Source: Bdellovibrio sp. (lineage in GTDB: Bacteria; Bdellovibrionota; Bdellovibrionia; Bdellovibrionales; Bdellovibrionaceae). From it: 51,999 nt of DNA. The position numbers and the translations under genes were made by a program. This document shows positions 20,035 through 38,033 of the stretch, in pieces. The stretch is from the NCBI GenBank assembly GCA_014376935.1, contig JACMQO010000164.1:1-51999 (forward strand), in the 5' to 3' direction. Below the pieces are notes generated by a model. The model searched no databases, was not told where the DNA came from, and was given only the letters and a program-made list of their open reading frames with translations. Within the stretch, counting starts at the first letter, position 1. Each line of letters starts with the position of its first letter.

Positions 20035-20107
20035 AATTACTTTTTATATTCGCAACGCGAATTACTTTTTATATTCGCAACGCGAATTACTTCTTATATT
20101 CGCAAGA
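20035..20107. repeat. 25-bp tandem repeat at the 3' end of the matrixin gene
   Basis: The unit AATTACTTTTTATATTCGCAACGCG begins at 20035 and again at 20060. A third, partial copy begins at 20085 with one change, TTCTT for TTTTT. The third copy contains the last codons and stop of the matrixin gene, so the gene's tail has been duplicated into the downstream spacer. Each copy recreates the frame end CEYKK-stop on the minus strand. Confidence 0.85.
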
Positions 20108-20749
20108 AATATCTTTTTCGTCCGTAGCGGCTAACTGAATTCGATTCGTGTAAGCGGCTAAGTGCGTGGCCATAACGGTTCCTTGATCTTCACGGTGTTT
20201 CAATCCTAAGAAATGACCCATTTCGTGAAGAACTAAAGCTTCAAAACTATAACCGTCTGCTGTGGTTCGTTGCGCGGTCACTAATCCGTAAGAGCCAGTA
20301 AGGACTTTTGGATTTTGATCGTAGTAACTGAAGTTAGCGGCATTGATTCGAATATCTGCTTCTTGAATCTCGTCCCCCGCCCATAAGACGTTGGTGCGAC
20401 CCTGCTCTGACTTTCTATCTGACTCCCAATCAGACAAAAAGTAAATACCGTTTTTTTTGTCGCGACCCGGAGAAGCGCTCAGGGCTGAAGAATCGTCAGA
20501 GATCTCGAAAACTTTTGTTCCTGCATTTGTTTCCCACGTTTTCGCAGCACGATATATTGCGGGTCGAAGTTCAGCGGGAACCGAACTGTGAATTATTAGC
20601 GATAGTGGTAATTTTGTTTTCCAAGAGATCCGCTGGCCGTAAATATTCTGCACGAAACCGCAGTCATCCTGAGATTTGGGTTTACACGATGACATGATCA
20701 TCACGAAAAGCAGTAAGCCTAAAATAGATAAGAATCTTTTTAATTGCAT
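20087..20749 (-). CDS. Matrixin-type zinc metalloprotease, lipoprotein
   Basis: This 220-residue metzincin is predicted to cleave proteins in the periplasm or outside the cell. The signal peptide ends in lipobox MSSC (Cys 22). The zinc site is HEMGHFLGLKH at 175-185, and the Met-turn is Met193 in TVMATH. The strand pattern before the zinc helix (EADIRINAANF) is normal for matrixins. The catalytic domain stands nearly alone, with no propeptide cysteine switch. TTG-like or ATG alternatives are not needed: the ATG at 20749 directly begins the signal peptide. Its 3' end is tandemly repeated. Its upstream region faces the 580-bp RNA-bearing gap. Confidence 0.92.
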   Translation of the reverse strand: MQLKRFLSILGLLLFVMIMSSCKPKSQDDCGFVQNIYGQRISWKTKLPLSLIIHSSVPAELRPAIYRAAKTWETNAGTKVFEISDDSSALSASPGRDKKNGIYFLSDWESDRKSEQGRTNVLWAGDEIQEADIRINAANFSYYDQNPKVLTGSYGLVTAQRTTADGYSFEALVLHEMGHFLGLKHREDQGTVMATHLAAYTNRIQLAATDEKDISCEYKK

Positions 20750-20846
20750 CTGCTTAAGTTCTTTTCAATTTCTTGACCAAGGAGAATGCGCTATTTTCGT
20801 TTTAAGCGTGCCATATTAAGACAGTTTTTTAAGCAAAGACAGTTTT

Positions 20847-20930: not shown

Positions 20931-21004
20931 CGTTTAAAATGAATTAAAGAGTTCCAACCTGGCACCATTTGCTTTAAGTCATTGAAATCACTAATCAAAC
21001 AAGT

Positions 21005-21021
21005 TTGGCAAGGCCCTTGCT
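21005..21021 (+). promoter_or_regulatory. Sigma-54 (RpoN) promoter
   Basis: TTGGCAAG-N4-TTGCT matches the sigma-54 consensus YTGGCACG-N4-TTGCW. The invariant GG (21007-21008) and GC (21019-21020) have exactly 10 bases between them. Transcription would start near 21032, directly before a GC-rich structured RNA. Confidence 0.7.
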
Positions 21022-21031
21022 ATAGTATCAA

Positions 21032-21223
21032 AGTAAGACAAACCTTCGCTTCGCTACAATCGTAGCAGCCTATAAGCGAAACCCATCCCACCAACAAACT
21101 TTCTTCGCTGGAAGGGGCTAACCACCCCGGCCTCCAGCTGCGCGCGCGGCTAACCTGAATGCAACTGGTAAGCTAGGCCGGCCCCTCACGGGGTCGGTTA
21201 AGCGCATGTGAAAGTGCTTTTTT
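21032..21223 (+). ncRNA. Candidate sigma-54-dependent structured small RNA (~190 nt)
   Basis: No protein is encoded here. The predicted transcript folds into successive hairpins. The first pairs TTCGCTT/AAGCGAA with an inner GCTAC/GTAGC (21045-21080). The second pairs GCTGGA/TCCAGC with an inner GGGG/CCCC (21107-21138). The third pairs GGCT-A-ACC with GGT-A-AGCT (21148-21174). The fourth pairs CCGGCCCC/GGGGTCGG (21178-21197). It ends in AAGCGC/GTGCTT plus six U residues (21200-21223). The motif GGCTAACC occurs twice, at 21116 and 21148. It lacks tmRNA, RNase P, SRP and c-di-GMP riboswitch signatures. It could be a trans-acting RNA or the leader of the lipoprotein gene at 21334. Confidence 0.55.
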
Positions 21224-21333: not shown

Positions 21334-21906
21334 ATGAAAATGAATTTTAGTTTTTTACCATTCGCATCTTTACTTGTTGTTGCAGGGTTGATGTCAGCGT
21401 GTGCCAGTAAACACAAAGCCGAAAATATCGATACCAAAGTAAACAACGAAGCAGCGATCACCGGCGACACATCTGTTGGAGTCAAAGACGGCAACATGGT
21501 CGTACAAAAAAAAGTAATGATGAACGAAGAATTAAGAACTCTACAATATGACGTTTACGAATTAGAAGATCGCGTTTACGGAAACAGAAAATACGGATCA
21601 CTAGGCCTGTACGGCTCTCTAAGAGAATGCAAAATGCAATTATCTGATCCACGTAACGGCGGCGACGGAAAATTAATTTGGACAGAGCCCATCGACCGCG
21701 TCACTGAAAAAGAAGACGATTTCAAAATCGGCCTAGATGAAGAAAAAAAATTGGTCGGAATCAAAGAAGAATTCTTAAGTGACCGCATCCAAAGATTCAA
21801 AGGCTACAGAACTTTGTTAAACAAACGCCAAGACGAATACGAAGAAAAATTAGCCATCTGCAAAACAGATTTAAACAGCAAAAAATTAGCTAACCAGCAA
21901 AAGTAA
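21334..21906 (+). CDS. Lipoprotein of unknown function
   Basis: This 190-residue lipoprotein has lipobox LMSAC|A (Cys 23). The ATG at 21334 follows GGAGGAATC, an ideal ribosome binding site. The mature part is highly charged and mostly helical. It includes a conserved-looking Tyr-rich block (ELEDRVYGNRKYGSLGLYGS), one Cys in ECKMQ and one near the C-terminus (AICKTD), and a long C-terminal helix. No family was recognised. It is the first CDS after the sigma-54 promoter and structured RNA, 110 bp beyond the RNA's terminator, so it may be under the same control by read-through. A strong terminator follows it. Confidence 0.82.
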   Translation: MKMNFSFLPFASLLVVAGLMSACASKHKAENIDTKVNNEAAITGDTSVGVKDGNMVVQKKVMMNEELRTLQYDVYELEDRVYGNRKYGSLGLYGSLRECKMQLSDPRNGGDGKLIWTEPIDRVTEKEDDFKIGLDEEKKLVGIKEEFLSDRIQRFKGYRTLLNKRQDEYEEKLAICKTDLNSKKLANQQK

Positions 21907-22041: not shown

Positions 22042-22323
22042 ATGTGGGATGTTTTCGAGAAAAAGTCAGCTGTTAAGAACATAGATAAACTACCCCCTAG
22101 TATTCTAGAAAAGTACGAATTCTGGAAAAGCGTCGTTCAAGTGTCAGGAACTGAAGGGTTAAAAGCCTTTTCAGGATTCAAAGACCATGCGTTAAAAGGC
22201 GAATGGAAAGGGTTTCGATCATCGTATTTAAATGATGCCTTCCGCGTTATTTACCAAATAGAAAGAAACGAAGTTCGCATTTTTGTTATTGACGTTAATC
22301 ATCACGACTACAGGAGAAAATAA
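22042..22323 (+). CDS. RelE/HigB-family toxin
   Basis: This 93-residue product fits the RelE/ParE-superfamily host-inhibition toxins, probably a ribosome-dependent mRNA endonuclease. The typical fold signs are an N-terminal helix pair (EKKSAVKNIDKLPPSILEKYEFWK) and a core GLKAFSGFKDHALKGEWKGFRSSYLNDAFRVIYQI. The C-terminal strand EVRIFVIDVNHHDYRR follows, with basic and aromatic residues at positions used for catalysis. The final HHDY is typical of this group. The ATG has no ribosome binding site and lies at the predicted transcription start, so the mRNA may be leaderless. The stop overlaps the antitoxin ATG by 1 bp. Toxin-first order matches higBA. Confidence 0.85.
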   Translation: MWDVFEKKSAVKNIDKLPPSILEKYEFWKSVVQVSGTEGLKAFSGFKDHALKGEWKGFRSSYLNDAFRVIYQIERNEVRIFVIDVNHHDYRRK

Positions 22324-22583
22324 TGAGCGATTTTACCAAATCTAAAGTCAGAGTTGAGTTAACTCCAGGAATGAGTCTACGCATAGCCAGAGAAATGTTG
22401 GGCTGGTCACAAAATAAATTTGCCGAGAAAACAAAGATTCCCCAATCAACAATTTCAGGCCTGGAGTCCGGCAGAATTTCTTTAGGCGTTGAGCGTGCTA
22501 AAAAGCTAGCCGCAGCCCTAAATATTCACCCGTCGGTATTGCTTTTTCCACAATGGGAATTTCAAAAGAAAAAAGCCAGCTAA
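22323..22583 (+). CDS. Xre-family antitoxin / repressor
   Basis: This 86-residue protein has an HTH_3 (Xre/Cro) domain at about 15-72: SLRIAREMLGWSQNKFAEKT, then the recognition helix IPQSTISGLESGRISLG, then ERAKKLAAALNIHPSVLLFP. It should neutralise the upstream RelE-like toxin and repress the shared promoter by binding the palindrome at 22012-22027. The ATG overlaps the toxin stop (TAATG), so translation is coupled. It converges on hslO. Confidence 0.88.
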   Translation: MSDFTKSKVRVELTPGMSLRIAREMLGWSQNKFAEKTKIPQSTISGLESGRISLGVERAKKLAAALNIHPSVLLFPQWEFQKKKAS

Positions 22584-36957: not shown

Positions 36958-37818
36958 CTAGAAATCAGAGATCTGTTTTGATAACTCAGGAAAATCGATG
37001 AATGGATTGCGGTTACCTTGAATTTTGTAAATACCGTCGTTACGCTCCATCTCTTCGGCGTCAACTGGGTGTTCAACATCCCACTTTCTTAACATTTCTT
37101 CTTCTTGCGGACTGATTGCAATTTCGTATCTTGTCGAGAAGTAGAACAACGCGCGAGCGACGTGACCTTTGTGTTCAGTTGGCGGTTCGAACACTTTTTG
37201 GTGGCTGTTTGCAGAATCACCGAAACGTGATGGCGCGCAGTTTGTTTTAATAGAACCAACAACTTCACCAAATTGGTAATTTCCACGAAGTGAATTTTGC
37301 TTATTATCTGTTGGAAATAAATGATGGATATCTGATTTTTGCATCTCAGTTGGGTATTTACCTGTGAACTTTGATTGCGGCCATGTGTGTTCTGTGTTGA
37401 TGACGTTACCATCTGGAATCACGCCCGGAGCCGGACCACCGTTACCACCGAAATCTTTACTTGTGTAAACGCGTTCACAGTATTTGTCTAAAATGCTGTA
37501 ACCACCGTTAGCTGTTGTTTTAAGATAGTAAGTACCGAACATCCATTTACGGGCGCCGTTGTAACCTAGTACGGTTTGCTTGTAGCAATTGCTTTTGCCT
37601 TCGCACGTGGGAACAACTTCGTCAGGACTATTCGCCGAAGCCGCGTGACCTGATTTTAAAATTGTATTTAATGCGGATTTTAATTCTTTGTCTTTTAGAT
37701 GGCTGACTGTTTGTTGAAAATCTTTGCCGTAATAATTTAGGGCTTGTGTCGATGGTTGTAACGCAAATGAAAGCGAGTAAACCAGCGAAAGAACTAAAAA
37801 CGTAAACGTGCTCTTCAT
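36958..37818 (-). CDS. Endonuclease I family secreted nuclease
   Basis: This 286-residue exported nuclease of the Endonuclease I / EndA (beta-beta-alpha metal) family has a signal peptide (about 1-19). The active-site segment is VINTEHTWPQSKF with catalytic His144. HHLFPTDNKQNSLRGNYQFG follows, with the metal-binding Asn. Several Cys residues (TCEGKSNC, KYC, NC) probably form disulfides. These enzymes cut DNA and RNA without strict sequence preference in the periplasm or outside. In a predator the natural substrate would be prey nucleic acid (inference). The gene stands alone with its own terminator. Confidence 0.92.
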   Translation of the reverse strand: MKSTFTFLVLSLVYSLSFALQPSTQALNYYGKDFQQTVSHLKDKELKSALNTILKSGHAASANSPDEVVPTCEGKSNCYKQTVLGYNGARKWMFGTYYLKTTANGGYSILDKYCERVYTSKDFGGNGGPAPGVIPDGNVINTEHTWPQSKFTGKYPTEMQKSDIHHLFPTDNKQNSLRGNYQFGEVVGSIKTNCAPSRFGDSANSHQKVFEPPTEHKGHVARALFYFSTRYEIAISPQEEEMLRKWDVEHPVDAEEMERNDGIYKIQGNRNPFIDFPELSKQISDF

Positions 37819-38033
37819 AAAAATCCCCTCTGTAGTCAGACCTGTTAAGGTGTCTGGTAGAAAACGCTGAACCGTATTATCAGCTTATACTTTGGTATCC
37901 GAATCTGTTGTTGAAAAAGCTACAAGGGCCAAAACACAGTTGCAATAAAATAATCTTGAGCATAGCGCACATAGACGACAGCCAATGTAGGCACCCCTTT
38001 TAGTGCCAAATCTTGTTTAAAAAACATTTCGAT

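Follow-up and report, generated by a model that had tools for sequence, protein, structure and literature searches.

A probable sigma-54-dependent structured small RNA gene of the order Bdellovibrionales

The window considered here is the whole stretch of 51,999 nucleotides analysed from a Bdellovibrio sp. genome (assembly GCA_014376935.1, contig JACMQO010000164.1). The intergenic region between a matrixin-like lipoprotein gene and a further lipoprotein gene at 21334 contains a sigma-54-type promoter followed by a stretch of non-coding DNA (Table 1). A sequence-only reading had proposed that a GC-rich, structured RNA begins about 11 bases past the promoter box, and both points are borne out, with a GC content of 0.55 against 0.34-0.46 in the surroundings and a conserved RNA predicted from about 21032. 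A coding role for this stretch is not supported, as many copies carry stops in all frames and the match lengths fall in every frame class. Elsewhere in the window, a toxin-antitoxin-like pair, composed of a YafQ/ParE-like protein of 93 aa and an HTH protein of 86 aa (22042-22583, plus strand), lies between the downstream lipoprotein gene and hsp33, without a counterpart there in the relatives compared, and a purine riboswitch aptamer scoring above the Rfam gathering score is found at 37813-37912 on the minus strand.

Table 1. Features of the RNA locus and its divergent neighbour, in window coordinates
Feature	Position	Strand	Basis
Matrixin-like (Peptidase_M10) lipoprotein gene	20087..20749	-	PF00413, E 6e-10; kept beside the RNA in relatives
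Sigma-54-like promoter TTGGTCAAGAAATTGAAAAG of the divergent matrixin-like gene	20761..20780	-	TGGYN7TTG enrichment
Enhancer-like element AGTTCCAACCTGGCACC, degenerate form of the GGTGTCRNNNYGACACC dyad	20950..20966	+	Dyad enrichment upstream
Sigma-54 -24/-12 promoter TGGCAAGGCCCTTGCT	21006..21021	+	Sole exact match in the window; spacing conserved in homologues
Conserved small RNA	21032..21149	+	Start predicted about 12 nt past the promoter GC; 3' end predicted
P1 stem (21045-51/21074-80) enclosing hairpin P1a (21053-57/21062-66, loop AAUC)	21045..21080	+	Compensatory changes
Linker ACCCAUCCCACCAACAAACUUUCUUC, unpaired, C-rich, G-poor, with CCYAYC motifs	21081..21106	+	Composition, motif counts
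P2 hairpin, GCUGGA 21107-12/UCCAGC 21133-38 and GGGG 21114-17/CCCC 21125-28	21107..21138	+	Compensatory changes
GC-alternating tail CUGCGCGCGCGG	21138..21149	+	Present in most Bdellovibrionaceae members
3' part: second GGCTAACC (from 21147), hairpin GGCCGGCCCC/GGGGUCGGUU, weak stem and U6	21150..21222	+	Species-specific

The promoter reads TGGCAC-N5-TTGC, with GG at 21007-8 and GC at 21019-20 separated by 10 bases, which is the exact -24/-12 spacing, and it is the only zero-mismatch occurrence of TGGCAN6TTGCW in the 52-kb window. The RpoN site called from the letters alone is therefore exact and its spacing is kept in relatives: TGGY/TTGC at GG-N10-GC lies upstream of 72 of 91 homologues, whilst none of the 91 carries these elements at N8, N9, N11 or N12. 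Similarly, a sigma-54 box with a score of 13 or more out of 15 is located just upstream in 77 of the 91 loci, compared with 1.5% of random 60-nt stretches. As the covariance models used to find these homologues begin 3' of the -12 element and leave the promoter out, the box constitutes independent evidence, and it is also present at three weak-scoring covariance matches (L111, L112 and L115). The rpoN gene (PF04552) was detected in 17 of 20 genomes tested, G000 among them. The box is decayed beside a well conserved RNA in P. exovorus (L010, L023 and L105) and at L048 (G077), and RpoN is intact in P. exovorus despite this decay. In B. bacteriovorus HD100, RpoN is encoded by bd0843 (PMC11209729).

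Conservation in relatives is confined to about 20990-21149, nucleotide similarity stopping at query positions 163-170 (window positions of about 21142-21149), and the R3 covariance match on the window spans 21022-21147 (E 2.3e-27). Because similarity ends there, the 3' hairpin, the second GGCTAACC and the U tract are limited to the source species, and the part from 21150 to 21222 was found in none of the relatives aligned. Of two features that had been read into this region, the repeated GGCTAACC does occur twice in the window, but the doubling is not conserved; likewise, the proposed terminator does have six T (21217-21222) after a weak hairpin, but this is species-specific and the U6 stem was not scored in a terminator scan. 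In most Bdellovibrionaceae the tail 3' of P2 is CCGCGCGCG, and in several other families a terminator-like U tract directly follows P2.

In place of the four separate hairpins originally described, the conserved fold comprises two hairpin units, P1/P1a and P2, joined by a linker. Across 91 distinct sequences, every modelled pair of P1/P1a shows compensatory changes, with 85-99% of cells paired, and these changes are also present in an unfitted MAFFT alignment; all modelled pairs of P2 vary in the same compensatory manner. The stems are thus conserved as stems, with compensatory changes at 21 of 21 model pairs and 93.1% of cells paired, against 67.5% in shuffled alignments and 41-54% with slid partners, in covariance alignments that are fitted to the model and so biased in its favour. 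Compensatory changes in the helices are also seen in a 43-sequence alignment, and an unfitted 11-sequence alignment has double changes at 8 of the 21 pairs. Folding of the single sequence is not significant against shuffles (z of -1.28 for 216 nt and -0.44 for the conserved core), and the structure therefore rests on the comparison with relatives.

The linker between the two units is distinctive in composition, with a mean length of 27 nt, a G content of 5.8% compared with 20.7% in the whole RNA and 78% of its positions unpaired. The CCYAYC motif occurs in 68 of 88 distinct linkers, against 17±3.7 in shuffles, and occupies two fixed or preferred positions. That the motif stays the same throughout the order as the stems vary points to a single, unchanging partner. 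The principal competing account is that of a usual trans-acting base-pairing sRNA, whose C-rich linker would base-pair to G-rich segments (GRURGG) in several mRNAs. An unpaired, G-poor linker does resemble the seeds of known C-rich sRNAs, and sigma-54 control is familiar from Qrr and GlmY/GlmZ. However, Hfq (PF17209) was absent from 10 of 10 genomes searched, control genomes being positive, and complementarity of the linker to 460 nearby translation starts did not exceed that of shuffled linkers, findings that together leave a generic anti-Shine-Dalgarno role unsupported. In addition, mRNA seeds usually drift, whereas this motif is constant across the order. Pairing with several mRNAs is accordingly a real but lesser possibility, and the binding of a conserved partner, either a protein or an RNA, is ranked above it.

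The matrixin-like gene is a conserved neighbour, occurring in 76 of the 91 loci and directly adjoining the RNA in most. In these 76 loci, it is divergent from the RNA in 63, co-directional in 12 and otherwise arranged in one. A sigma-54-like signature, TGGYN7TTG, lies upstream of 41 of the 76 matrixin homologues but of only 11 of 352 other nearby genes; in the window copy the -12 element reads GA instead of GC, making it weaker. This arrangement hints, short of proof, that the RNA and the matrixin gene are controlled together from the intergenic region they share. In 12 of 75 loci, the promoter and RNA together are turned the other way with respect to the matrixin gene, and both orientations occur within single genera (L043/L057, L073/L111 and L074/L078) in which the other genes keep the same order, so that only the promoter-RNA cassette seems to have flipped in place. 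A phase-variable invertible element was considered for the flipping cassette and set aside, as a comparison of its flanks showed no inverted repeats in common. One genome (G054) carries two copies of the RNA, each beside its own copy of the matrixin gene (L072 and L108).

Downstream of the RNA, gene content varies, and in L005, L007 and L008 the following gene is convergent. Since the downstream genes differ or converge, and the cassette is inverted in those 12 loci, the RNA is its own gene, with the neighbour arrangement of a standalone transcription unit such as would be expected of a trans-acting sRNA. The same evidence leaves the earlier suggestion that the transcript may extend into the lipoprotein gene at 21334 unsupported, and it largely refutes the related view that the RNA is a cis-acting 5' leader, either a riboswitch or an attenuator, of the gene that follows. 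Such a leader would fit the frequent presence of a same-strand downstream gene, a lipoprotein gene in 19 loci (as in the source genome) or a dehydrogenase-like gene in 17 (of the isocitrate/isopropylmalate dehydrogenase family in Bdellovibrio), but convergent genes in several genera and the U tract directly after P2 in several families also stand against it. A leader of either gene was rejected on gene context, and this account is considered very unlikely.

The regions 5' of the RNA are rich in TGACACC/GGTGTCA, and GACACCA occurs in 29 of 84 upstream regions where 0.2 would be expected. The GGTGTCRNNNYGACACC dyad scores at least 10/14 in 51% of loci compared with 6.6% of background, and at least 11/14 in 24% compared with 0.7%, although this enrichment is somewhat inflated as the dyad was derived from the same sequences that were scored. 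The copy in the source genome is weak, with a dyad score of 10/14. These elements look like candidate activator sites. Genome G000 has 15 PF00158 matches, about 11 of which are strong AAA+ domains of enhancer-binding proteins (EBPs), and, taken with rpoN and the TGACACC/GGTGTCA sites, this makes control of the RNA by an EBP plausible. That the block serves chiefly as a DNA control region, holding promoters and enhancers of the matrixin gene with only incidental folding, would account for the sigma-54-like sites on both flanks and the TGACACC dyads between them, but is highly improbable given compensatory changes in every helix and a conserved unpaired linker 3' of the promoter, since DNA sites would need no pairing.

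Successive covariance models, built from 11, 43 and 92 sequences, matched 44 of 66 genomes of the family, 97 of 144 of the class and 108 of 369 of the phylum, respectively. The phylum-wide search places the RNA in 107 of 144 genomes of the class Bdellovibrionia, about three quarters; outside the class, the only match among the 108 was a weak one in G216, which was dropped as it is without a sigma-54 box. Nucleotide searching recovered the stretch from most genomes of the source genus, in which we count P. exovorus JSS, and the copy in B. bacteriovorus HD100 lies at 1,199,750-1,199,881 on the minus strand. The RNA has been lost in a Bdellovibrio subclade, where the matrixin gene is nevertheless retained together with its promoter. 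At L129 and L130 (G052 and G047), the sigma-54 box is present and the RNA region contains a longer insertion. Neither the window copy nor six relatives matched any of 4227 Rfam families, low thresholds included, and nothing above the gathering threshold assigns the RNA to a known family; a phage collection also contained no match to it. The covariance search, the stems and the absence of an Rfam match thus strongly support the original claim that an undescribed structured RNA is under the control of a sigma-54 promoter. No earlier description was found in a literature search covering few subscription journals, so one could exist. On this comparative evidence, the small RNA gene is real and previously uncatalogued. 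Attack-phase sRNAs and merRNA of B. bacteriovorus are small RNAs of the same lineage, but none of the eight sRNAs listed from HD100 attack-phase RNA-seq overlaps the position of the HD100 copy, and merRNA holds a c-di-GMP riboswitch (PMC3627812).

Among better known systems, the Qrr sRNAs of Vibrio, controlled by LuxO and sigma-54, offer a likeness in being short standalone RNAs with several hairpins, a sigma-54 promoter and, presumably in the present case, an EBP. However, no relation in sequence or structure was found between them (no Rfam match), the Bdellovibrionales hosts are without detectable Hfq, and the CCYAYC linker replaces the Qrr pairing region. GlmY/GlmZ, CrcZ and other sigma-54-dependent RNAs also place sigma-54 promoters upstream of trans-acting RNAs, and two of them, CrcZ and GlmY, act through protein titration. 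RNAs of the GlmY/GlmZ and CrcZ type are known from gamma-proteobacteria, and their folds and motifs are unlike those of the Bdellovibrionales RNA. The CcsR/cuckoo RNAs and RepG of Helicobacter similarly expose C/U-rich motifs, RepG doing so in a host without Hfq. In these, the motif is CCUCCUCCC or is located in a loop, whereas the Bdellovibrionales RNA has CCYAYC motifs in an unpaired linker, and its promoter is of the sigma-54 type.

Sequence comparison establishes the promoter, the conserved fold, the linker motifs and the independence of the gene, and the locus is best read, with a probability of about 0.8, as a standalone sigma-54-dependent structured RNA gene of the order Bdellovibrionales with a conserved core of about 115-120 nt. 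For this RNA gene we infer transcription, an activator, an enhancer shared with the matrixin gene, action in trans and a partner, which may be arranged as follows. An activated EBP, probably bound at TGACACC-type sites in the interval that separates the RNA from the divergent matrixin lipoprotein gene, would allow sigma-54 polymerase to start transcription at about 21032. The transcript would fold into P1/P1a and P2 and present the unpaired, G-poor linker with its CCYAYC motifs, through which it may act in trans, most likely by engaging a single conserved partner, either an RNA-binding protein or an RNA that is itself conserved. This partner-binding mechanism is given about even odds. A more specific and rather doubtful version is a Csr-like sponge of Hfq-less predators, in which an order-wide RNA would titrate an RNA-binding protein through paired CCYAYC motifs under a sigma-54 switch held in common with the matrixin-like protease.

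Regulation after transcription has hardly been explored in Bdellovibrio and its relatives. An RNA that occurs across the order and in the model strain HD100, and that combines a clear promoter with a defined unpaired motif, provides a direct way in for these bacteria, in which Hfq was not detected, through its sigma-54 activator and the partner of its CCYAYC linker.
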